DNA of 34,924 nucleotides from Kiritimatiellota bacterium (GTDB taxonomy: Bacteria > Verrucomicrobiota > Lentisphaeria > Oligosphaerales > JAADHN01), in NCBI GenBank assembly GCA_013151865.1, contig JAADHN010000106.1:1-34924 (forward strand). The letters are read 5' to 3'. This document shows, in pieces, positions 1,606 through 26,439 of the stretch; the first letter of the stretch is position 1, and the number at the start of each line of letters is the position of its first letter. The notes beneath the pieces are model-generated. The model was not told the DNA's origin and searched no databases. It saw only the letters and a list, made by a program, of their open reading frames with translations. Both the position numbers and the translations under genes were made by a program.

Positions 1606-1790
1606 GTAACGCTGTAGAGCAGAATGCCCTCTTTTTTTGTCACTGTCACCGCCAGTGTGGGCGACTACTTTACAGAAGATGACGCTTCCAAGCTCAAATT
1701 CGCGCGAAACTGTAACGCAGTCACCCACACCCATTCCCGGGAGTCCGTCCAAAAAAGGGAATCCAACTTTACAGACCTCCAAGCTCAATC
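1606..1790. repeat. Two degenerate tandem copies of a unit of about 100 bp
   Basis: GTAACGCTGT at 1606 is matched by GTAACGCAGT at 1712. ACTTTACAGA at 1667 is matched by the same ten bases at 1766. In both copies CCAAGCTCAA follows shortly after. The spacing of matches is 106 and 99 bp, so the copies differ by small indels. No protein or RNA family is recognised. Confidence 0.5.
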
Positions 1791-2065
1791 TACTGAGGTC
1801 TGGTCCAAACTTGTCGACCGCGGTCCGCGGTTCGCGGACAAGCCTGTTTTCCCGTGATCCAACCGCTTTGTCGGCACGGGGTCGACTTCGCCGAGCGTTG
1901 CGGTTGCCCCATGCGTTTTGGGAGCACAGACAGCGTGGCCTGCCCCGTGCGGCAATCGAGACGGGCAGACCGGCGGTCCGGGAAACGTCGACGGCCCAGT
2001 TTGCCCATGGGACAGGGGCCCGGATTTCCGACGGGGGTGAGGGCGGTAAGGAGCACGACGGAATC

Positions 2066-2971
2066 ATGCAATCTTCCATGACGACCTGGATCGACACCCA
2101 TGCCCACATCGCCCGGGAATCGCCGACGCTGTCGGACGACCTCCAGGCAGTGTTCGCGGCAGACTCGGCGGATTTGCGCTTGGTGATCAGTCCCGGAGTC
2201 GGGTTTCTGGCCGAAATGTGCGACGATCCCGAGGCCGGTCGGTCGGCGGCGGACTGCATCCAGCGTCTGGTCGCGGCATTCCCGAATCGGTTCTACGGTG
2301 CTTGTTGCGTGAACCTCAATTTCCCGGACGAGGCGTTGCGACTCATGGATCTGTGCTTGGGACAGTACGGATTCGTCATGCTCGGCGAGATGCTGGGCTA
2401 CATTCTTCGTTTTGACATGAATACCTCCGCCGGCGAGCAGGTCGTTCGGAAAGCTGTCGAATATGATGTGCCGGTCCAGATTCACCTCTCGACCTCGAAC
2501 AGTCCTCACCAGGGGCACACGTCGGGCCTGGGGCAACTCGACGACATTCTCGGCATTGCCGAACGTGTGCCCGAGGCGCGCTACATCCTGGCCCACATGA
2601 TCGGCATGGCCGACGACGATCCGCCGGTGGTGCGCGCTTATTTGGATCGTATTGACGAACGCTGCGGAAGGTGGCCGGACAATTTCTGGGCCGAAATCAT
2701 CGACTTTCACTCCCCGGGCGTCGCCGAGGCCCTGATGCGGATTCCGCACGACCGACTGTTGGTCGGAACGGATTGGTGCACGCGCATCGGTCCCCCCTAC
2801 CTGCCGTACGGCGTGGACCATTTGGTTTGGTCCGGTGGAGAATGCGCCTACGAACCGTCCGTGGCGCGCTTGGTGGAGTTCTTGACGAATTGGGGGGCGA
2901 CCGAGGACGACATCCGGTGTATCGCCTGGCGCAATGCCGTGGATTTGCTTGGGCTCGATGTTGGAGACTGA
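2066..2971 (+). CDS. Amidohydrolase-family metal-dependent hydrolase (COG2159-like)
   Basis: A 301-residue TIM-barrel hydrolase of the amidohydrolase superfamily. Metal-binding landmarks are in the expected order: His12-x-His14 (THAH), His140 at the end of VQIH, His177 in ILAH, and Asp236 in GTD. Members with this layout include decarboxylases and lactonases, so the reaction cannot be named from sequence. There is no signal peptide, so it is probably cytoplasmic. The ATG at 2066 has AAGGAG about twelve bases upstream; Met5 (2078) is an alternative. The frame stays open further upstream, but that part does not look like protein. A second, only distantly similar amidohydrolase lies at 19170-20168. 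It converges with the next gene across a hairpin. A lactonase acting on oxidised sugars would fit the neighbourhood, but this is inference. Confidence 0.85.
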   Translation: MQSSMTTWIDTHAHIARESPTLSDDLQAVFAADSADLRLVISPGVGFLAEMCDDPEAGRSAADCIQRLVAAFPNRFYGACCVNLNFPDEALRLMDLCLGQYGFVMLGEMLGYILRFDMNTSAGEQVVRKAVEYDVPVQIHLSTSNSPHQGHTSGLGQLDDILGIAERVPEARYILAHMIGMADDDPPVVRAYLDRIDERCGRWPDNFWAEIIDFHSPGVAEALMRIPHDRLLVGTDWCTRIGPPYLPYGVDHLVWSGGECAYEPSVARLVEFLTNWGATEDDIRCIAWRNAVDLLGLDVGD

Positions 2972-15038: not shown

Positions 15039-17798
15039 CTATGGCTTCGGCTCGGGCCGACGGGGTTGCGAAGTCCGCGCAATTGGAATGAGGGTGATGT
15101 GCCGGAACTGCATGTGGGCGCCCTCGGCCTGGAGGCAGATTTTTCCCGGGGTTTCCCAGCAATCGCGGGCGACATTCTGGAGCAGGCCGTTCACTCGAAT
15201 CTCGAGGTCCTCGCCGTCGAGGGTGATGTCATATTGATTCCACTCGCCCAGGGGGCGCTCGTTGGACCGGTGCGCTTTGACCGTATGGCGTCCGCGGGTG
15301 CGTTGGGGATCGGTTTTCATGGGGAACTTGTCGATGTTCCAGATATCGCCCAGATTGCCGATGAGTCCCTGGCACTCGATGGCGCGCGGCCAGACCTTGT
15401 CCTTGCCTACCATACGAAGCAGGACGCCGCTGTTGCCGCGGGAGAGATGCCGCAATTGCACCCTGAGCACATAGTTTGTGAAGTCGCGCGCGGTCCGGAA
15501 GTATCCGGCCGGTTTGCCGGTGTCGTCGAGTACACCGTCTTTGACGGACCAGGTGTTCTTCTGATTGGGGTTTGAGTAGGTCCATCCCGACAGGTCTCGT
15601 CCGTTGAACAGATGGACGGGTGCGCCGAACTCGGCGGTGATGGGGCGGACTTGGATTTCCTTGAATTCCGCGACGGCTTTTTCGCCTGGAATCAGCTCCA
15701 ACCCGACCCGACCCGCGGTCGGTCCCCCCGAACGGAGGTCGACGAGTTCCGTCACGGTCAGTCCGTTAATTTCGATGGCCAGATGTCGGCCGCGGGCCCG
15801 GACCGCAAGCGAAGCCCACTGTCCCGGAGCGGAGTATCCTTCCTTTCGAAAAGCATCCGACGGCACGACCGCGCCGAGACGGCGCGTACTCCGCTCGCCG
15901 AGTTCGACGAATTCGCCGGCGGCCGCGAGCACGGTCCCCTCAGACGAGGAGAGGGCGCCCACACGGTCCGGACCGCCGGCGAGGAGAATGCGATACGCGG
16001 CGTCCGTCCCCGTGCGAACGGCCACCGCGGCATTGCCGCTCAACACCCGGAAGCGCAATTTGAGAAGGAAGTTCTTCATCGGAGCGCCGTTCCACGCGAG
16101 AAAAACGGGTTGCGCGACCGCCCCCTTTGTCTCTCCGTGGACGCTTGCCGCCCGGACGGACCAGACGGTGGCGTCGCCCGACCACAAACCGAGAGAGCGA
16201 CCGTCGAACATCGGAGTGAAGCCGTCTTCGACCCACAGGGAGAGCAGTTCCTCGGCGGTTGGCTCGCCTTCCACGATAAAGCCCGCGTTGGCCCAATCCG
16301 CATGATCGCACGCGTTGCCGTTGCCGCCGTCTCCGACGATCAATCGGAGGGTCTTTGTTCCCTTTGGGAGCGCGACGTCGATGGGGTAGCGTTCGTCGGC
16401 AGGCGTGAGCACCGGCGTCTTGACCAGGCGTTTGTTGTCCGCGAGTACTTCGAACGTGACGCTGCCCACGGGCGTGTCGTTTTTTTCGTCGTCGACTCCG
16501 ACCACGGCGACGAATCGCCGGTAGTTCGAGAGAACCGGAAAAACAATCTCCGAGACCGCGTGCGTCCCAATGCCTTTCTCGAACGTCTCGCCCCGGATGC
16601 GAATGGGGTTGTCTTCGATGGAAAGGTCGCGCCGCGGTGCGCCGTTCCATCCGCTGGTCCAGACCTTGGGTTTGAGATCGGCGCAGTAGACGTCGGGCCG
16701 GGGCGGCAGAGGCGGCAGCTTCGGCGTGGTCACTTTGACGGCGGCGAGTGGTTTCGGCGGTTGCGAGGTCCAGGCGACGGGGTAGACGGTGTAGACAATT
16801 TTACGACCGGGTGGAGCATGTGAATCGACGGCCGTCCCGCCGGACACCGGCAGTTCCACGCCGTCGTCCCGGCGCACGACCAGCGGTCCCCTCGTGCCGT
16901 AACATTGGATGCGGACACGGCGCGCGGAAGATGCGGCGGCTTCAACACGGACGCCGGCGGATGTCGGAGCGCGAGGTTTGCCGCGCTCGAACCGGACCCG
17001 CCACGTGGCGACACCGGCCGGTGGTTGCAGCGTCCAGGCGCGGACCCAGGGGCCGGTCTGCATAATGTCCGTTTCCGTATCAGCCGGGCCCACAATCATT
17101 TCCCTGGCAAGCCAGCGGATCGGGGCGGGCGGCGCGAAGATCCGCAGTTCCATGGGGTGCTTTGCGCCCAGCGCCGCTTTGCCGGTCAGAACGTTCCGGT
17201 CCGCCAGCCACGCCACGCCGGAGACTCTTGCTTCTCCTTGTTCGCAGCCTGAGTAGGCCAGTACGACCGGGCGGTCCAAGCGGGCCGCGACGAACACGGG
17301 GCCGTACACCCGCCGCTCAATTACGATTTCGTCGCGCAACGGGCCAAGAAACCGATTTGTGGCGGGCTCGAATCCGGCCAACGGCCCGGGCCCGAGCCCG
17401 AGGGCGGCGAGACGCACGCGCACCGGCAACGAAATCTCCGGCGGGGCCGCGGCAACCATGGCGAATACGCCGGGCAGGGCAGGGACATTGACCACGGCGA
17501 GCAACACGGCGGGGGATTGGAGCGGGGTTTTCAGGGGCAGAGGCAGGATCCGTGCCGGCGTACCGGGCAGCGCCGCGAACACTTGTCCGGGCCCGGCAAG
17601 CTTGGCTCTGTTGTTCAGTTCAAGCCGAACGACGCCTTTCGAATCGCGAGCAATGCGGAGGTCGCCCTCCCGCGCCCGGCATGTCCCGTCCGCCACGGAC
17701 ACCTCGAGCCCGAAGCCGCTCCACGAGACGCACGAGGCGTAGAGGACGGCTAACAACCATGCACGCCGGGTATTCCACAGGGTAAACAGGCGGTTCAT
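15039..17798 (-). CDS. Secreted NPCBM plus double DUF1080 (3-keto-disaccharide hydrolase family) protein
   Basis: A 919-residue exported protein with a signal peptide in residues 1-30. Residues 30-365 form a beta-rich region that I do not recognise. Residues 370-512 match NPCBM modules (KGIGTHAVSEIVF, VGVDDEKND, ADWANAGF). Two DUF1080 domains follow at about 525-720 and 725-907, each opening with the typical LFNGRDLSGW-like motif. The second keeps GNSGVLLRM and the following IECQ. In the first the matching places read GNAAVAVRT and AYRILLAG, so it looks degenerate. DUF1080 members cleave 3-keto-glycosides made by Gfo/Idh/MocA-type oxidoreductases, and such a gene lies 124 bp upstream in the same operon. 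The ATG at 17798 has GAGGAG upstream. Action outside the cytoplasm is inferred from the signal peptide. Confidence 0.87.
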   Translation of the reverse strand: MNRLFTLWNTRRAWLLAVLYASCVSWSGFGLEVSVADGTCRAREGDLRIARDSKGVVRLELNNRAKLAGPGQVFAALPGTPARILPLPLKTPLQSPAVLLAVVNVPALPGVFAMVAAAPPEISLPVRVRLAALGLGPGPLAGFEPATNRFLGPLRDEIVIERRVYGPVFVAARLDRPVVLAYSGCEQGEARVSGVAWLADRNVLTGKAALGAKHPMELRIFAPPAPIRWLAREMIVGPADTETDIMQTGPWVRAWTLQPPAGVATWRVRFERGKPRAPTSAGVRVEAAASSARRVRIQCYGTRGPLVVRRDDGVELPVSGGTAVDSHAPPGRKIVYTVYPVAWTSQPPKPLAAVKVTTPKLPPLPPRPDVYCADLKPKVWTSGWNGAPRRDLSIEDNPIRIRGETFEKGIGTHAVSEIVFPVLSNYRRFVAVVGVDDEKNDTPVGSVTFEVLADNKRLVKTPVLTPADERYPIDVALPKGTKTLRLIVGDGGNGNACDHADWANAGFIVEGEPTAEELLSLWVEDGFTPMFDGRSLGLWSGDATVWSVRAASVHGETKGAVAQPVFLAWNGAPMKNFLLKLRFRVLSGNAAVAVRTGTDAAYRILLAGGPDRVGALSSSEGTVLAAAGEFVELGERSTRRLGAVVPSDAFRKEGYSAPGQWASLAVRARGRHLAIEINGLTVTELVDLRSGGPTAGRVGLELIPGEKAVAEFKEIQVRPITAEFGAPVHLFNGRDLSGWTYSNPNQKNTWSVKDGVLDDTGKPAGYFRTARDFTNYVLRVQLRHLSRGNSGVLLRMVGKDKVWPRAIECQGLIGNLGDIWNIDKFPMKTDPQRTRGRHTVKAHRSNERPLGEWNQYDITLDGEDLEIRVNGLLQNVARDCWETPGKICLQAEGAHMQFRHITLIPIARTSQPRRPEPKP

Positions 17799-17922
17799 CG
17801 GCCGTTTCTCCTCTCTTTTGACAATCTGGAAACCCAAGTTGTCCTTCCGGCGCGCAATCGGATGCCGGGGGACATGAAACGGGGGGCGCCGCATTCCGGG
17901 ACGCCGTGCCGGGGACGGCCGT

Positions 17923-19188
17923 TCAGGAGGCGCCGGGGAGGGCGACGACGTCGTCCGGAGGCGCGACGACCGGGCCCTTCTCGAAATCGTCGGCGGTCGG
18001 TTTCAACGCGAGGCTGTACCAGCGTCCCTTTGGATTGGATATGCAGTCGGACCACCGGACCAGTTGGCCGGTATAGGCAGAAATTCGCCCCATGATCCCG
18101 GTCAGTGTGGATTCCGCGACATTTCGGGATTCATTGACGGGCTCGCCCTGTATGACGCTGCGCAGAAGCGCGCGGTGTTCTTCAACATACGGGTTGGCGT
18201 GGACTTCGATCTTGGGCGCGGCGATGTCTTTCTCAAGTGTGGGTTGGATCTTGCCGCCCCCCCACATGGTCCCCTCGGTCCCGATGAAGAACTCGCGGAC
18301 GGCGTTGTAGCAGCGGTTGATCTGCCGGCACATGCTGTGAACATGGACCCCGTCGCCGTAGTCGTAGTCGATGCTGAAGAAGTCGTATTGGTCTCCGGTC
18401 TTACGTCGGGCGCGGCCGCCGAAACCCAGTGCGGCCACCGGGGGGCGTCCGATGAACCAGTTGGCGACGTCCAGATTGTGTACATGCTGCTCAACGATGT
18501 GATCGCCGGACATCTCGGTGAAGCTGACCCAATTTCGGACCATGTACAGCGCATCCGGTTCATTGGGGAGTCGAGGTTTGTACCATAAGCGTCCTCCGCA
18601 CCAGTAGACATTGGCGGCAACGATTTCACCGATGACGCCATGAGCTGCCAGAAAAGCGTTTCGGAGATACGTGCCCTGATGGCGTCGCTGTGTCCCTGCC
18701 ACGATGCTGAGGCCCTTTTGCTTGGCCGTCTCGCCGGCTGCGATGATCCGCCGTACCCCCGGCGGGTCCACGGCCACGGGTTTTTCCATGAATACATGCT
18801 TTGCGGCGTTTACGGCGGCTTCGAGGTGGACCGGGCGGAAATTCGGGGGCGTCGCCAGCAGGACAATATCGGCTTCCGTCTCAAGGACGTTGCGATAGGC
18901 GGAGAACCCGTGAAACCAACGTTCCGGCGCGACACCGAACCGTTCGCCGGCACGCCGCGCACGGGCTTCGAACACGTCCGCCACGGCCACGACACGCACT
19001 TCCGTACCCAGCGTCTTTCCGGCCTCGAGGCAGTTGGCGGTCGCACCGGTCCCACGTCCGCCGCAACCGATCAAAGCAATCTTCAAGCGGCGCCGGGCCG
19101 CAGCTCCCATCAACGGCATCGCGGCAAAGGCCGCGCCGGCCGCCGAAGATGCCAGAAAAGTCCGTCGACTCACCTCGCGTTCATGCAT
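17923..19188 (-). CDS. Tat-exported Gfo/Idh/MocA-family oxidoreductase
   Basis: A 421-residue NAD(P)-dependent sugar oxidoreductase. The N-terminus SRRTFLASSAAGAA is a twin-arginine signal (Arg8-Arg9), so the folded protein with cofactor is expected outside the cytoplasmic membrane. The Rossmann motif GCGGRG is at 41-46, the cofactor/active-site EKP at 135-137, and the catalytic-region motif GDHIVEQHVHNLDVANW at 228-244 with His235 and His237 as candidate catalytic residues. The ATG at 19188 is preceded by GGAGGAG inside the end of the upstream amidohydrolase gene; the two genes overlap by 19 bp, which suggests coupled translation. Downstream comes the DUF1080 gene. Known relatives oxidise glycosides at C3; the electron acceptor outside the cytoplasm is unclear if NAD(P) is carried along. 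Confidence 0.92.
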   Translation of the reverse strand: MHEREVSRRTFLASSAAGAAFAAMPLMGAAARRRLKIALIGCGGRGTGATANCLEAGKTLGTEVRVVAVADVFEARARRAGERFGVAPERWFHGFSAYRNVLETEADIVLLATPPNFRPVHLEAAVNAAKHVFMEKPVAVDPPGVRRIIAAGETAKQKGLSIVAGTQRRHQGTYLRNAFLAAHGVIGEIVAANVYWCGGRLWYKPRLPNEPDALYMVRNWVSFTEMSGDHIVEQHVHNLDVANWFIGRPPVAALGFGGRARRKTGDQYDFFSIDYDYGDGVHVHSMCRQINRCYNAVREFFIGTEGTMWGGGKIQPTLEKDIAAPKIEVHANPYVEEHRALLRSVIQGEPVNESRNVAESTLTGIMGRISAYTGQLVRWSDCISNPKGRWYSLALKPTADDFEKGPVVAPPDDVVALPGAS

Positions 19189-20168
19189 GGTTTGCAATCT
19201 CCTCCCACTCGATGGCGTTCCGAATTCCGGCCTGTTTTTCCGTCGCATCCGACCGCAGTCTCACCTCGGGGCAGGGAGTCGTCTCCGAGCCCGAGATGAA
19301 ACAGTCGGTCGGCATTTCGCCAACTGATATCCTCGAAAGTTTCTGCGGAAATGTGCCCGTCGCGAAAGGAGGCGCGCAGGTACTCGGCATGACGGTGGTC
19401 GTTGCCGGGGTCGCAAATGTCGGTGCCGAAGAGAACTCGGTCGTGGAAGCGTTCCATGAACCGCCAGCCGAATTCAGGGTCGCGCGTCAGGCCGTTATAT
19501 CCGCTGCCGGCATCCCAACCGCACCACAGATTGGGATAGGTTTCCATCAGGCGCGGCACCGCACCTCCGGGGGCGACCGGCCCTTTCGGGTACGTGTTGC
19601 GGGTCGACTCGGTGACGTCGCCGCTGATCTCGGACCAAAACGGCTGGGAATGCCCAATGAAAACGAGATTCGGAAAACGTTGCAATGCGCGTTCGAGGCC
19701 CGGCAAACCCGTTTCGTCGATGAGTCCGTAATATCCATGCCGGGCTGGACCGATGTGAAAGATTACCGGCATTTCGCACTTTTCGCAATGATAAAACAGG
19801 TTTTGCACCAATGGATCGTCGAAAGGCAGGGAGGCCGTGATCTCGCCGAGGCCGCGGCAGCCGCGTTCTTTGTAGAACATCAGGTGAAACGACAAATCGG
19901 CCTCGGGCGAGTTGGATCCGGCCCGTGGATCTACGTTGCAAAAGGGGACGAATCGGCCCGGGTATTGCGCGCAAATGTCGAGAATGTCTTCCGGCGTGGA
20001 CTGTTGAAAGGAACACTCCGGACTCGCCCCCGGCAGGAGAACGCCCCTGTCCACGCCGGTGCGGTCCATCATTTCAATGAGTTCTTCCGGAGTTGCGAAG
20101 TTCGCCCCCCGGCCATTGCGGGGCAGGCTCTTTCGGCGGACCGTGTGCAAGTGTGCATCGATGAACAT
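19170..20168 (-). CDS. Amidohydrolase-family protein (COG2159-like), first gene of oxidoreductase operon
   Basis: A 332-residue TIM-barrel amidohydrolase. Metal ligands appear in order: His6-x-His8 (DAHLH), His138 (VIFH), His173 (IGHSQ) and Asp250 (FGTD). No signal peptide is present, so it should be cytoplasmic, unlike its two operon partners. The ATG at 20168 is preceded by AGGAGAG; an in-frame ATG at 20192 is less likely. Its last 19 bp overlap the start of the Gfo/Idh/MocA gene. The family includes decarboxylases and lactonases. In an operon that makes 3-keto-glycosides, a role on an oxidised sugar product is plausible, but the different compartment needs explaining. The last ~25 residues are poorly conserved-looking and rich in Gly, Arg and Lys. 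Confidence 0.87.
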   Translation of the reverse strand: MFIDAHLHTVRRKSLPRNGRGANFATPEELIEMMDRTGVDRGVLLPGASPECSFQQSTPEDILDICAQYPGRFVPFCNVDPRAGSNSPEADLSFHLMFYKERGCRGLGEITASLPFDDPLVQNLFYHCEKCEMPVIFHIGPARHGYYGLIDETGLPGLERALQRFPNLVFIGHSQPFWSEISGDVTESTRNTYPKGPVAPGGAVPRLMETYPNLWCGWDAGSGYNGLTRDPEFGWRFMERFHDRVLFGTDICDPGNDHRHAEYLRASFRDGHISAETFEDISWRNADRLFHLGLGDDSLPRGETAVGCDGKTGRNSERHRVGGDCKPCMNAR

Positions 20169-20681
20169 GGTTGAGATCCCTCTCCTACCCATGGCGTACT
20201 CGGCACGGCGTCATCCGCGGACACTCCAAAGGCTGTGCCCGGCTTCTCGGGCGCCGCAGGTTTCGCGACCAAGTCGAGCGGCCCGAAACCGGGCCTCGTG
20301 CAGCCCGGTGCTTCCCCGAATCTCGTTGAGAAATCGATCGAAGAGTCGGCTCACGGTGGGGCCCTGCAAAACCACCCAGGCAATTCCGCGACATCTCGCA
20401 GATCGATCTTGCCCGTGAGGATGCCATGGACCGTATTCGCCGATTCCCCTGGAATGGACTTACAAGGTCGGCTGAGTATTGTACACTGCATTTGCCGTTT
20501 TTGCCCCGTGCGCGGCACTGGACCGGATCGACGTCGCGTGAAGCGATTACAGGCCGGTTTCGACAGCGTTCGGACGGTTCTGAGATGCATCGTCCAGCGC
20601 CGCATTGCACGTGTGTCGCAATGGACGCGGCCCGGGAGAATGAGCGACGGGATTTCGGCGAACCGAGACTCGGAGGCTGTC
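20169..20681. other. 513-bp divergent intergenic region
   Basis: It separates the minus-strand oxidoreductase operon from the plus-strand carboxypeptidase, so promoters for both should lie here. The only -10-like patch I see is ATTGTACACT around 20478-20487. It reads TACAAT on the minus strand (20478-20483) and TACACT on the plus strand (20482-20487), the latter 16 bases after TTACAA. Neither has a good -35 box. Open frames on both strands have no protein-like composition. Confidence 0.4.
20672..20676 (+). promoter_or_regulatory. Ribosome binding site deciding the carboxypeptidase start
   Basis: GGAGG five bases before the ATG at 20682. The frame is open for about 450 bases further upstream, so this site is what fixes the start. 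Confidence 0.75.
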
Positions 20682-21806
20682 ATGGCGTTTCGGTATTTGA
20701 ACACTGGATTCGAGAACGCATCACCACTGGACTGGGAGATTGGGGACAACGGTGCGATACAGATCGCGTTGATTTACGACCATGAGCGGGAATCGCCCAA
20801 TCGCGCTGTGCTGCACTGGCATTTCATGCTCGAGGCGGACCCGGGAGATACGCTGCGCCTGGAGCTTCGGAATTTCGATAATATCTGGAACGGTCGGCCG
20901 GGCAGCCCGATCGGCGACGAGACCCCGTGTGTGGTCTCGGAGGATGGGCGCAACTGGCGGACCGCGATCGGACGCAAGGTCGAGGGGAACCGCCTGGAGC
21001 TGTTCGTCTCGTTGGTTGCGGATCACCTGTACGTCGCTCGGATCGAGCCCTACCGGATTTCGGATTTGGAGAGGTTTCTGGAACGTATACGCCGGAACGA
21101 ATTGGTTCGGATCGAACCCGTTGGGACCACGGTCGAGGGGCGGGAACTGAGCATAGTCTCCGTCGGACGGCTCGATGCGCCCCACCACGTACTGCTGCGC
21201 GGCCGTGCGCATCCGTGGGAGACCGGCGGCAACTGGGTGATCCAGGGCCTCATCGATGGCCTGCTGGCCGCCGATGCCGGGTCTGCGCTCGATGCGTACT
21301 GTCTCCACGTATTGCCCATGGCCAACAAGGACGGCGTGGCGCGGGGGATGAGCCGGTTCAATCTCCGCGGGTGCGATTTGAATCGAAACTGGGAGCGTCC
21401 GGCCGATCCCATGCTCGCGCCCGAGAATCGTGCCCTGGAAGTCTGGATCGAACGGATGATTTCGGCCGGGCAGCGTCCCGACCTGGTGATCGACCTGCAC
21501 AACGACAACGGCGGCCAACTCCACGCGAATTGCCCGGAAGAGGGCGCCGAACTCTATCAGGCCAACATGGTGCGTCTGGAAGAAGTATTGCGACGTTTCA
21601 CCTGGTTTCGGGAAGGGCGCGTGAGCCCGAACTTTCGCAACCCGGGCTCGCTGGGCGAGGGGCTCTGCGACCGATACGGCATCGATGCGTGTATCCTGGA
21701 ATTGAAGTGCCTGGCCACCGAGGGCTTGGGGCGTCCGCCTTTAGGGGCGGACTGGCATCGATTCGGGCGGGGCATGCGCCAAGCTTTGACCGCCTATTTC
21801 GCCTGA
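20682..21806 (+). CDS. M14-family zinc carboxypeptidase
   Basis: A 374-residue peptidase. Residues 1-125 form a beta-rich N-terminal domain like that of cytosolic carboxypeptidases. The catalytic domain shows the zinc ligands His177 and Glu180 (GRAHPWE) and His273 (IDLHND), the substrate-binding Arg235 in CDLNRNW, and the catalytic Glu340 in CILELK. No signal peptide is seen, so the enzyme is probably cytoplasmic. M14 enzymes remove C-terminal residues from peptides or cleave peptidoglycan-derived peptides. The sequence does not tell which. Its presence among glycosidases may mean that the substrate is a glycopeptide. The codons at 21733-21752 contain a palindrome with the same arms as an intergenic repeat and a rare-looking TTA. 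It converges with the TIM-barrel gene at 21960. Confidence 0.88.
   Translation: MAFRYLNTGFENASPLDWEIGDNGAIQIALIYDHERESPNRAVLHWHFMLEADPGDTLRLELRNFDNIWNGRPGSPIGDETPCVVSEDGRNWRTAIGRKVEGNRLELFVSLVADHLYVARIEPYRISDLERFLERIRRNELVRIEPVGTTVEGRELSIVSVGRLDAPHHVLLRGRAHPWETGGNWVIQGLIDGLLAADAGSALDAYCLHVLPMANKDGVARGMSRFNLRGCDLNRNWERPADPMLAPENRALEVWIERMISAGQRPDLVIDLHNDNGGQLHANCPEEGAELYQANMVRLEEVLRRFTWFREGRVSPNFRNPGSLGEGLCDRYGIDACILELKCLATEGLGRPPLGADWHRFGRGMRQALTAYFA
21733..21752 (+). repeat. Palindrome inside the carboxypeptidase gene
   Basis: GTCCGCC and GGCGGAC flank a six-base loop. The arms are identical to those of the intergenic palindrome at 11232-11248. The bases encode part of RPPLGADW and include a TTA leucine codon, uncommon in this GC-rich window. 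Confidence 0.6.
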
Positions 21807-21959: not shown

Positions 21960-22769
21960 TCAGGCCAAGGCTTCCAGGATGCCGCGCACGTAACCGAGGG
22001 TAAACGCCAAGTCCCGATCGACCGCCGGGAAGTCGGTGCTCCCCACGCACTCGACGTAAAGCGGCCCGGCGAACTCGGCTTCGTGCAGGGCGCGGAGAAC
22101 GCACGGGAAGTCGACCAGGCCGTCACCGGCTGTCACTTGTACGCTGGGCTTGCCGTTCTCGACCTTGCAGTCCTTGATGATTCCAACCGCGATGTGCGGG
22201 GCGATTTTGGGCAGGTCGTCCTCGGGGTGCAGCTCGCCGGCAGTGTAGTAGAGGATGTTGCCGGGGTCGTAGCACAGCGTAAACGCTTCTTCGCCCACGG
22301 CGCGCCAGGTTTCGAGCAGACCTTCGGCGGTGAGCCCGAGACCGCCGTGCGGCTTGAGCGTGATGCGTACGCCGATCTGTTCGGCATGTTGCGCGGCCGC
22401 TTGCATTCGGCGGACATAGACCGGACGCAGGGTGTCGTTCATGCAACCGCAATCCAGGACCCACTGAGCGCCGACGCGGGCGGCATTGTCGAGCAGACGG
22501 CGGTAGCGGTCCACTGCGTCAGTGTCTTCCCCGTCCAAGGGCAGCGAGCCGATCACCAGCGAAGGCGTCAGTCCGAGGTCCTCGGCCATGCGGCGCACTC
22601 GGTCGACTGCTTCGGGCGACGTATCGGCGTCCACAGGCATTCCGCCCTGATTTCTGAACAGGGCCACATGCTTGTACCCGGCCGAGGCAATATGCTTCAG
22701 GGCATCGTCGATAGTGAGTCGGTTGCAGGGGCGGGTGGTGGCGCCGATGGCGATATGCGACTTCTGCAT
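21960..22769 (-). CDS. Xylose-isomerase-like TIM-barrel protein (sugar phosphate isomerase/epimerase family)
   Basis: A 269-residue protein of the AP-endonuclease-2-type TIM barrel. Family landmarks are PHGG (140-143), YDPGN with Asp168 (167-171), IIKD (197-200) and YVEC with Glu240. In usual members a Glu precedes PHGG as a metal ligand, and a His sits two residues before the KD. Here these are Lys139 and Ile197, so two of the four usual metal ligands appear replaced. The start at 22769 has AGGAGG seven bases upstream and is firm. No signal peptide is seen. It is the last gene of the GH78-GH2-radical SAM group, 162 bp after the radical SAM gene. Relatives isomerise or epimerise sugars, and some act as lyases on 3-keto-glycosides. 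With altered ligands the reaction here is uncertain. Confidence 0.82.
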   Translation of the reverse strand: MQKSHIAIGATTRPCNRLTIDDALKHIASAGYKHVALFRNQGGMPVDADTSPEAVDRVRRMAEDLGLTPSLVIGSLPLDGEDTDAVDRYRRLLDNAARVGAQWVLDCGCMNDTLRPVYVRRMQAAAQHAEQIGVRITLKPHGGLGLTAEGLLETWRAVGEEAFTLCYDPGNILYYTAGELHPEDDLPKIAPHIAVGIIKDCKVENGKPSVQVTAGDGLVDFPCVLRALHEAEFAGPLYVECVGSTDFPAVDRDLAFTLGYVRGILEALA

Positions 22770-22776
22770 GGTCCGT

Positions 22777-22782
22777 CCTCCT
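22777..22782 (-). promoter_or_regulatory. Ribosome binding site of the TIM-barrel gene
   Basis: AGGAGG on the minus strand, seven bases before the ATG at 22769. It excludes the upstream part of the open frame. Confidence 0.8.
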
Positions 22783-22931
22783 GGGTTGACCCGCGACTGC
22801 GCGGCAATGGTCCCGGACAGCGTCTTCGGAATAGGATACCGACAGCGGGGGCAAATACAAACCGCCCATATCGAGAGCATTCATGCGGCGCGAGACAGTC
22901 GTCTTGCCGCCGGGGGGCGCGGCCGGATCAG

Positions 22932-24584
22932 TCAGTACAGGCAGCGCCGGTACACGGTTGGGGCAGTCCCGCGGCGGTCGCTCCCGGTGGGAAAAGAAAA
23001 CCAGTATTCGGCGTCTCGACCGGTGTAATGCCAGACACGGCGTCTCCGGCTCGTCGTTCCCGCGTCGCCTTCCACGAGTGTGGCATCCGGAGGAATGCGG
23101 TCGCGCCATAGTTCGGTGAGCGCGATGCCGTGCTCCGGGCTGAACCCTCTGCACAGCCAGTGATACTCCAGGAACTCCGCGGCGGCGCCCATGCCTCGTT
23201 CCCGAGCGAACGCGTGGAGGAGTCGGAACCGGGCTTGCAGGTGCTGGGGCCGGGCCAGACGCTCGTCCCCCACGTACCCGAGGAAGGCCGGAAAGAACTC
23301 CGGGTCCGCTCCGGCCGCCGCCCGTACCCCTTCCCGCAGTCCGGGGACGTTGTAGAATCGGTCCGTCAACACCGAGAGACACCTGGCCGTGTGCAACGCC
23401 TCAACCGTTATTTGCGGTGTGCACAGTACTTCGTATGGCGGGGTTGGTGCATAGCGCAACCGTTGCCGACCGGCGATGGTCGCCAAGGGTGTTCCCGGCA
23501 GCACTTTCAAGATTTCGAGCTGTATCTCGTCCGGACCGAGTTCGCAAGTCCGGCGGACATCGGCGAAAACGTCATGGAGCGTCTGATTCGGCAGGCCGGC
23601 GAGCAAATCCACGTGTGTTTGCAGGTTGCGGAGTTCGCAGAGAGCACCGGTTGCAGCGAGGGCTGCTTCGGGTTCGCGCGTGCGACCGACGACCCCGCGT
23701 GCCGTTGGGCAAATGCTCTGCAGGCCGATTTCCAGGTGAAGTTGTCCCTCGGGGGCGACACGTAGGGCTTCGAGCAGTTCGGGTGTGAGCAGCTCCGGGC
23801 GCCATTCGAGATGGAAGCAGAGGTCGGGGAATTCATTACGGAAGAGGTTGAGGAGACGGCGTGCCCGGGGGGGATCGGCGTTGAACGTACGGTCCAGCAG
23901 GCGCACGTTGCGGACACCGTGCTTCCGGCATGTCTGCAACTCCTGTCGGACCCGGTCGACTGAGAAGTGGCGTAGAGGCCCGGTGCCGGCGCTCGTGCAA
24001 AATGTGCACCGGCAAGGGCAGCCCCGGCTCGTCTCGAGCTGCACGAACGGTTTGGACCAGTCGAAAAACCGGCTCCGGGTCGGCGCGGGCAGGGCGTCCA
24101 GTTCTCCGGAGAATCGAGCCCGACCGTTGTCGTGGCAGAGCCCGCCCGAGTCGATCCAGCACAATCCCGGGACTTCTTTCCATCGGTGCGGGGCCCGCGC
24201 AGAACGGAGCCACAGCGGGAAGCCGACTTCCCCCTCGCCGCGAAAAACGGCGTTCACTTCCGGATGCGTTCGAAGAAAATGCTCGTTGTCGCCCAGCCAT
24301 TCGGGGCCGCCGAGGACGACCAGGCACTCCGGGGCAAGTGCTTTCAGACGGCCGACGACTTCGAGAACGGCGTTTCGGTTGAACAGATAGACCGTGGCCG
24401 CCAGGATCTCCGGTGCGGTGGCCCAAACCCGGCAGGTGAGTTCTTCGGGACGGTCGTGCAATGTGCCCCGGACCACTGTCCAGTGCACCTCATTGTCGCT
24501 GTCGCACGCCGCTTCGAGGCGCGGCAGGGCCGCGGAACTGTGCGAAAAGGAGGAACAGATCGACAGCCACGTCAGCCGAAGCAT
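22932..24584 (-). CDS. B12-binding-type radical SAM protein (DUF4080-like)
   Basis: A 550-residue protein. Residues 1-130 form a Rossmann-like cobalamin-binding-type domain (LSICSSFSHSSAALP at the start, LVVLGGPEW at 88-96, FRGEGE at 114-119). The usual cobalamin-ligand motif DxHxxG is not seen. The radical SAM cluster motif is Cys189-x3-Cys193-x2-Cys196 (SRGCPCRCTFC), followed by a TIM-barrel-type core with LEIGLQS and DLLAGLPNQT. The C-terminal ~170 residues resemble DUF4080. The start at 24584 fits the domain; a longer frame exists upstream but would overlap the end of GH2. It lies 73 bp after the GH2 gene on the same strand. The substrate is unknown; methylation, methylthiolation or C-C rearrangement are possibilities. 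It is an unusual partner for glycosidases. Confidence 0.85.
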   Translation of the reverse strand: MLRLTWLSICSSFSHSSAALPRLEAACDSDNEVHWTVVRGTLHDRPEELTCRVWATAPEILAATVYLFNRNAVLEVVGRLKALAPECLVVLGGPEWLGDNEHFLRTHPEVNAVFRGEGEVGFPLWLRSARAPHRWKEVPGLCWIDSGGLCHDNGRARFSGELDALPAPTRSRFFDWSKPFVQLETSRGCPCRCTFCTSAGTGPLRHFSVDRVRQELQTCRKHGVRNVRLLDRTFNADPPRARRLLNLFRNEFPDLCFHLEWRPELLTPELLEALRVAPEGQLHLEIGLQSICPTARGVVGRTREPEAALAATGALCELRNLQTHVDLLAGLPNQTLHDVFADVRRTCELGPDEIQLEILKVLPGTPLATIAGRQRLRYAPTPPYEVLCTPQITVEALHTARCLSVLTDRFYNVPGLREGVRAAAGADPEFFPAFLGYVGDERLARPQHLQARFRLLHAFARERGMGAAAEFLEYHWLCRGFSPEHGIALTELWRDRIPPDATLVEGDAGTTSRRRRVWHYTGRDAEYWFSFPTGSDRRGTAPTVYRRCLY

Positions 24585-24657
24585 GAATGCGTTCCCCGAG
24601 GTTCTCCGGATTGGGCGGGCGGCGCCCGGACACTGCCGGGACAGCGCGGCGTCCGGC

Positions 24658-26439
24658 TCACGGCCCGGTGTCCTGCTCGATGGCCGCCGGCGCGCCAAAG
24701 GCACGGCGTAGCCGAGTGGCGTCGAACTTCAGTTTCCGGTCGAAAGTGTAGATGCCGTTTTGCTCCTGCTCGACGTCGGTCAATTGGGTGTAGCAGAAAC
24801 CACTGATATGCGGGTGCGTCGTCAGGACTTCGGTCAGTTTTTCGATGCGGCGGTAGACCTCCTCGATAGTTTGAGGCATCTCACCGTACCCCCAGCCCCC
24901 GCCGGCCTCCGCTTTCGCGCCGGCTCCGGCGCGCCACCACGTGCCCCCGTATTCGTCCACGAAAAAGGGTTGGCCGTTGTATGGGACCGACAGTTCGGCA
25001 TGGTGGCCGTGGAAGCCTTTCCGGGCGTCGGGCGCCAGTTTTTCGTAGTGTCCGCGGAACAGATCGGGGTCCTGCTCGTAATTGTGGTCCGTGTACAAGT
25101 CCGTCTCCACGTGAACGTACCCGCTCGTGTCGTTTATCGGCCGGGTCGGGTCAATGGCTCGGGTCAGGTTCACGAGTTCACGGAGGGTGCGGCGGTGGGC
25201 GGGGAGGTCGGCTCGGGCGGAGGCGTAGGTCTCGTTGGTGGGCGTCCAGGCGATGATCGACGGATGGTTCCGGTCGCGCAACACGACTTCGGTCCACTCG
25301 GATTCGAGGTTGCGTACCATGGCCGCGTCCCGAAAATCGCGACCGGCCCCCCAGTCGCAGAATTCGCCCCAGGTCAGGTACCCGAGGCGGTCGGCCCAGT
25401 AGTGGAAACGTTCCTCGAAGACTTTTTGATGTAGGCGCGCCCCGTTGAATCCCACCGCCATGGCGCGTTGGATGTCGCCCTTCAATTCCGCATCCGAGGG
25501 CGCGGTCCAGATGCCGTCCGGATAGAACCCCTGGTCGAGAACCAGGCGTTGAAACAGGGGCTGATGGTTCAACAGTACCCGATTCCCATCGATTTCAATT
25601 CGGCGCAGGCCGGCGTAACTCGTTACGCTGTCCACCGCGCGTGTCCCCTCGAGGAGTTCAAACCGCAGGTCGTAGAGAAACGGGGTTTCTGGAGACCAGG
25701 GCTGCGGGCAGGTCAGGGGCAGAACCAGGGGCAGGCCGTTGGCGGCCGACGTCGCCGCGTCCGCTACCTTCGAACCGTCTACCGACGCGACGGCGCGAAA
25801 TTTCAACCCCGCAACAGTCCCGTCGAAACGGGGAACCAGGGCGAAGCAGCCTCGGTCGAGATCGGGGACGATCTGCACCCAATCGAAAAAAATCCGCGGC
25901 TTTGCCTCGAGCCAGGCCGTTTGCCAAATTCCCGTTGTGCGCGTGTAAAGACAGCCGTGAGACGCGAATTGAGGCGACTGTTTGCCGCTCGGCTGTCTTC
26001 CGGAACGGACGTCGTCCAAGGCGCAAACCGTGATTGAATTCTTGCCCTCCCGCACCGCCCCGGTGATTTCGAAGGCAAATGAAACCGACCCCCCGATATG
26101 CCGCCCCACCTCCCGACCGTTCACCCAGGCGCGGCAGTCGTAGTCGACCGCACCAAAATGCAGAAACACCCTTTTGGCCTCCCAATTCGGCGGCAGTTCA
26201 AACGTCCGATGGTACCAGACACAGGAGACGAAATCCGTGTGTCCGATCCCCGAAAGTCGGCTTTCCGGGCAAAAGGGCACTACGATTTCGCGATCCAGGG
26301 CGCCGGGGTCTGACGCCCATCCACGTTCGAGTCCGGAAGCACCGAAGTCGAATCCGAATCTCCAAACCCCGTTCAGATTCAGCCAGTCCGGACGATAGAA
26401 CTGAGGTTTGGGATGCTCCGGTCGGGGTATATCGTTCAT
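24658..26439 (-). CDS. GH2-family beta-glycosidase
   Basis: A 593-residue enzyme with the three-part GH2 core: jelly-roll sugar-binding domain (20-180; WYHRTFELP, AWVNGREVGRH, TTGIWQTAWLE), Ig-like domain (185-275), and TIM barrel (280-585). The acid/base is Glu403 in TPTNET and the nucleophile Glu496 in VDEYGG, both at expected places. The length fits beta-glucuronidase or short beta-galactosidase types; specificity between these is not readable. No signal peptide is present, so it would act in the cytoplasm on imported oligosaccharides. AAAGG precedes the ATG at 26439. It lies 356 bp after GH78 and 73 bp before the radical SAM gene, all on the minus strand. Confidence 0.93.
   Translation of the reverse strand: MNDIPRPEHPKPQFYRPDWLNLNGVWRFGFDFGASGLERGWASDPGALDREIVVPFCPESRLSGIGHTDFVSCVWYHRTFELPPNWEAKRVFLHFGAVDYDCRAWVNGREVGRHIGGSVSFAFEITGAVREGKNSITVCALDDVRSGRQPSGKQSPQFASHGCLYTRTTGIWQTAWLEAKPRIFFDWVQIVPDLDRGCFALVPRFDGTVAGLKFRAVASVDGSKVADAATSAANGLPLVLPLTCPQPWSPETPFLYDLRFELLEGTRAVDSVTSYAGLRRIEIDGNRVLLNHQPLFQRLVLDQGFYPDGIWTAPSDAELKGDIQRAMAVGFNGARLHQKVFEERFHYWADRLGYLTWGEFCDWGAGRDFRDAAMVRNLESEWTEVVLRDRNHPSIIAWTPTNETYASARADLPAHRRTLRELVNLTRAIDPTRPINDTSGYVHVETDLYTDHNYEQDPDLFRGHYEKLAPDARKGFHGHHAELSVPYNGQPFFVDEYGGTWWRAGAGAKAEAGGGWGYGEMPQTIEEVYRRIEKLTEVLTTHPHISGFCYTQLTDVEQEQNGIYTFDRKLKFDATRLRRAFGAPAAIEQDTGP

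Follow-up and report, generated by a model that had tools for sequence, protein, structure and literature searches.

The closest described systems couple the oxidation of a glycoside to the cleavage of its 3-keto product. PMC11300592 describes BT2158 as a periplasmic glycoside 3-dehydrogenase, and PMC9007349 describes BT2157 of Bacteroides thetaiotaomicron as a 3-ketotrehalose hydrolase of the DUF1080 family. In Caulobacter crescentus, the DUF1080 protein CCNA_01705 is the proposed periplasmic 3'-ketolactose hydrolase, and oxidation by the membrane-bound LacABC complex and DUF1080-dependent cleavage are both proposed to occur outside the cytoplasm (PMC9007349). AtOGE and LgdB1, which belong to the isomerase/epimerase family, act as beta-eliminases on 3-keto sugars (PMC10628242, PMC7676230) and are encoded next to oxidoreductases (GlycDH/AtOGE in Agrobacterium, LgdA/LgdB1 in Bacillus smithii).

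The window, i.e., the whole stretch of 34,924 nucleotides that was analysed, is an entire contig (C20) of a 6.2 Mb genome. Open reading frames and Pfam matches confirm that its minus strand encodes the three genes described in the earlier note, with the same families and in the same order:

20168-19170, minus strand: amidohydrolase (PF04909), predicted to be cytoplasmic; ATG at 20168 with a Shine-Dalgarno sequence
19188-17923, minus strand: Gfo/Idh/MocA oxidoreductase (PF01408 and PF22725) with a Tat-type signal; frame readable from 19248
17798-15039, minus strand: predicted secreted protein with NPCBM and two PF06439 domains; longest open reading frame extends to 17894
16278..16694, minus strand: NPCBM domain (residues 401-539 of the longest open reading frame, E 1.6e-40)
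15645..16223, minus strand: first DUF1080 domain, fast-evolving, without GYQAEV
15090..15617, minus strand: second DUF1080 domain, conserved, with an IECQ...GDIW core, of the same subtype as other oxidoreductase-linked domains
21960..22880, minus strand: AP_endonuc_2 protein, a sugar isomerase/epimerase-like TIM barrel

The likely starts of the three genes (20168, 19188, and 17798) were assigned by Shine-Dalgarno sequences and homology. The amidohydrolase and oxidoreductase genes overlap by 19 bp, and 124 bp separate the stop of the oxidoreductase from the start of the DUF1080 protein. A promoter scan gave no more hits than shuffled sequences, and a terminator scan gave only slightly more. A divergent gene for an M14-type zinc carboxypeptidase (20235-21806) lies between the amidohydrolase and the AP_endonuc_2 gene, and a B12-binding radical SAM protein (22932-24704) is encoded amid glycan-degradation genes (GH2, rhamnosidase, GH39, DUF4838).

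Like BT2157/BT2158, the pair in the window combines an exported Gfo/Idh/MocA oxidoreductase that has an RR-type signal with a DUF1080 partner, but the oxidoreductase falls far below the BT2158 family cut-off and carries PF22725 instead of PF19051 at its C-terminus, the hydrolase possesses an NPCBM and two DUF1080 domains, and an amidohydrolase adjoins the pair. The locus resembles the Caulobacter system in the proposed site of oxidation and cleavage, whereas its dehydrogenase is a soluble Tat-type protein. As in Agrobacterium and B. smithii, homologs of the oxidoreductase often adjoin a protein of the isomerase/epimerase family, whereas the adjacent partner in the clade of the window is a DUF1080 protein. 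The location of both enzymes outside the cytoplasm, to which the earlier note had pointed, does not make the pair a variant of the 3-keto-glycoside route, since a periplasmic site has already been described for BT2158 and proposed for CCNA_01705; the pair belongs to an already known kind of system.

The oxidoreductase matches PF01408 at 2.3e-13 and shows the Rossmann fold and E-K-P motif that define membership in the Gfo/Idh/MocA family. E135-K136-P137 are invariant in 11 homologs, and both the EKP and the DHxxEQHxHNxD (HNLD) motifs are conserved. A GGAGG-type Shine-Dalgarno sequence is located just 5' of the ATG at 19188, where the Tat-type n-region SRRTFLASSAAGAAFAAMPLMGA begins. With the Pfam TAT model, the score is 21.7 bits, slightly short of the cut-off of 22.7; TIGR01409 is above its cut-off in the orthologs from two relatives (G022 and G001) and is not reported among the NCBIfam-type profile matches of the window protein itself. 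Read from the N-termini, the oxidoreductase has a Tat-type signal, the DUF1080 protein has a Sec-type signal, and the amidohydrolase has neither. Among the NCBIfam models, inositol 2-dehydrogenase gives the best match to the oxidoreductase (64 bits vs. a cut-off of 355). The model of BT_2158-type glycoside 3-dehydrogenases (NF058561) reaches 30.4 bits over residues 27-213 only, compared with a cut-off of 750 over the full length, and PF19051 is present in BT_2158-like paralogs on contigs C15 and C6 of the same genome. Because of the 30-bit score and the presence of PF22725 instead of PF19051, family membership does not prove oxidation at C3, which we infer from the DUF1080 partner only. A single-sequence AlphaFold model of the oxidoreductase was set aside (mean pLDDT 34).

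The partner protein matches NPCBM at 1.6e-40 and PF06439 twice at 1.7e-45, with 155.8 bits against a cut-off of 26.8. GAGAGGAG lies upstream of position 17798, and a Sec-type signal follows from that start; because of the Shine-Dalgarno sequence and this signal, 17798 is probably the true start. The N-terminal third (approximately residues 65-400 of the longest open reading frame) has no Pfam match and is conserved in three relatives (G022, G001, and G009). The first DUF1080 domain of the window protein has lost the GYQAEV motif that is kept in the G022 ortholog. The second is 69% identical to that of G022 over 177 columns and shares its E-x-Q core with other linked domains. Since the first domain evolves fast and lacks GYQAEV, whereas the second keeps the E-x-Q core, any catalysis would reside in the second domain.

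Among the 60 nearest genomes, close homologs of the oxidoreductase occur in G022, G001, and G009; all genome sets searched are from outside the genus and family of the window genome. The oxidoreductases of these three genomes are 63-70% identical to that of the window; compared as a pair, the two genes give 65-70% and 47-49%. In each case, an NPCBM and DUF1080 gene lies directly downstream and in the same direction, as in the window, so that, with the window included, every genome of the order with this oxidoreductase (four in total) also has the pair. G022 and G001 share the window's architecture of NPCBM and two PF06439 domains, and the gene of G009 is cut by the contig end. Proteins of the type of the window's DUF1080 region also occur unlinked in relatives. 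The export signals predicted on both enzymes and their joint encoding in relatives are what would be expected of a module.

The pairing recurs beyond the order. Homologs of the oxidoreductase at E 1e-75 or better are present in 56 of the 388 genomes of the phylum, and the neighborhoods of 40 of these were fetched and scanned, together with those from the class, for four genes on each side where the contig allows. A DUF1080 gene lies directly downstream of the oxidoreductase in G048, G348, and G303 and directly upstream in G250, which adds four loci from other families. At 18 other loci, the oxidoreductase has an AP_endonuc_2-family protein nearby; most of these proteins are encoded directly beside it, and many bear a Tat or Sec-type signal. 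For about 20 homologs, no neighbor of either kind (DUF1080 or isomerase-like) lies within four genes. On a quick maximum-likelihood tree of the oxidoreductase, calculated without bootstraps, the DUF1080-linked label requires four changes, at least three of them forced by starred branches; the pairing is therefore not explained by a single inherited arrangement. When DUF1080 domains were placed on a tree, each of the seven linked loci tested (the window with its second domain, G022, G001, G048, G348, G303, and G250) contributed one domain to a single clade (99*), which excludes all sampled DUF1080 domains from elsewhere in the window genome, a small sample of unlinked domains. The pairing of oxidoreductase and DUF1080 protein is thus more than chance.

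The clade of the window adjoins isomerase-linked relatives (L147-L150) on the oxidoreductase tree, and the survey suggests that the cleaving partner of this subfamily is exchangeable. It is tempting to speculate, albeit with less than even odds, that this exported oxidoreductase subfamily serves to activate bonds in general and that evolution has swapped the protein that cleaves them: most lineages would pair it with an eliminase of the isomerase family, and others, among them the clade of the window, with a particular DUF1080 hydrolase subtype. If so, the neighbor would decide whether elimination or hydrolysis cuts the same oxidized intermediate. The AP_endonuc_2 gene at 21960..22880 is a possible downstream enzyme of the pair.

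The conserved pair, its recurrent and subtype-specific association, and the alternative AP_endonuc_2 partners are best explained if the second and third genes form an exported oxidise-then-cleave glycoside module, to which we assign a probability of about two in three; this part of the earlier proposal gains support. The functional unit would be the oxidoreductase and the NPCBM/DUF1080 protein, both predicted from their signals to be exported. The oxidoreductase would probably fold with NAD(P) before Tat export and oxidize a hydroxyl group of the glycoside, most likely at C3. The NPCBM domain would hold the secreted DUF1080 protein on the carbohydrate, and the latter would act outside the cytoplasm, where it would cleave, mainly through its second DUF1080 domain, the glycosidic bond thus activated. 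In this scheme, we infer the C3 regiochemistry, the substrate, the handling of the cofactor, and the hydrolysis. The amidohydrolase would be a metabolic enzyme and only a neighbor. With this module, glycan cleavage of the exported 3-keto type would extend to a subfamily of oxidoreductases that is uncharacterised and occurs across the phylum.

The same genes might instead encode an exported dehydrogenase of the polyol or inositol type, together with an ordinary secreted NPCBM/DUF1080 protein that binds or hydrolyses polysaccharides, which would serve one polysaccharide without acting in sequence. The inositol 2-dehydrogenase match is consistent with such a locus, as are the GH2, GH78-type, GH39, and DUF4838 genes in the window and a DUF1080 protein that is called an endo-xanthanase/lichenase in work cited in PMC9007349. 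Nevertheless, we consider it unlikely, because the recurrent subtype-specific pairing in differing gene orders and the AP_endonuc_2 alternative argue for sequential chemistry; a natural fusion of Gfo/Idh/MocA and DUF1080 domains in the same genome also speaks against it. A non-catalytic DUF1080 protein, whose NPCBM and two lectin-like jelly rolls would tether the oxidoreductase to the polysaccharide, is the least probable of all readings: the fast evolution of the first domain and its motif loss would fit, as would the overlap of CBM66 and DUF1080 annotations in planctomycete proteins (PMC5673643), but the strong conservation of the second domain and its E-x-Q core argues against a mere tether.

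The earlier note had also proposed an additional lactonase- or decarboxylase-like step, i.e., a dedicated three-gene pathway in which the cytoplasmic amidohydrolase would open or decarboxylate the imported product of the exported pair. In favor of this step are the common strand, the overlap with the oxidoreductase, the conserved metal-site residues of the amidohydrolase (H6, H8, E109, H138, H173, and D250), and fold matches (TM about 0.5) that include decarboxylases and lactonases as well as hydratases. The three kinds are represented about equally, however, which does not favor a lactonase or decarboxylase in particular. The protein matches Amidohydro_2 at 6.9e-14. A single-sequence search of the PDB returned no match at E 0.01, and a profile search returned only the uncharacterised 3irs. 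However, orthologs of the amidohydrolase (70% identity in G006, 68% in G022, 65% in the record of Lentisphaerae bacterium GWF2_44_16, and 54% in G009) are located away from any oxidoreductase-DUF1080 pair. They adjoin sulfatase and PEP-CTERM genes in G006, TrkH/TrkA, URO-D, and sulfatase genes in G022, and an AP_endonuc_2 gene in G009; no consistent partner emerged in a search for recurrent neighbors of the amidohydrolase loci. G006 has no close oxidoreductase. In G022, the genes 5' of the pair encode a lysylphosphatidylglycerol-synthase-type membrane protein and an epimerase instead of the amidohydrolase; because the contig of G009 does not cover the upstream side of the pair, the evidence on this gene within the order comes from G022 and G001. 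Within four genes on each side, where the contig allows, an amidohydrolase lies beside none of 44 other oxidoreductase homologs. The translational overlap noted earlier is real, but its 19 bp fall into a C-terminal tail of approximately 33 residues that is absent from all 13 homologs, modelled below pLDDT 50, and predicted to be disordered. Because orthologs are encoded elsewhere, linkage to other homologs is lacking (0/44), and the tail is neither conserved nor confidently structured, we take the order of the three genes to be local, with the amidohydrolase adjoining the pair in this lineage only. Gene order in relatives, chosen beforehand as the refuting test, is thus conserved for the second and third genes and not for the first. 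The three-gene pathway is very improbable, and the amidohydrolase is removed from the proposed route.

The amidohydrolase family is multi-copy in the order, with five matches in the genome of the window. A second PF04909 amidohydrolase in the window (1637-2971; residues 152-440 of the open reading frame) is absent among the close homologs of the one at 19170-20168.

Several proteins encoded elsewhere in the same genome (G000) combine related domains. The fusion on contig C8 (L112:4977-6587, minus strand) is a protein of 537 amino acids with a Gfo/Idh/MocA part (residues 9-318) and a DUF1080 domain (355-531). A protein of 1336 amino acids on C117 (L107:7849-11859), encoded downstream of a Gfo/Idh/MocA gene, joins HEAT repeats, an AP_endonuc_2 barrel, and a DUF1080 domain. 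On C15 (L105:4516-9934), an oxidoreductase nearer to BT_2158 than that of the window is followed by a protein with HEAT, F5/8C, and two DUF1080 domains, and C6 (L106:1877-4708) encodes tandem oxidoreductases that are likewise nearer to BT_2158; a C6 paralog scores 489.9 bits to BT_2158_fam.
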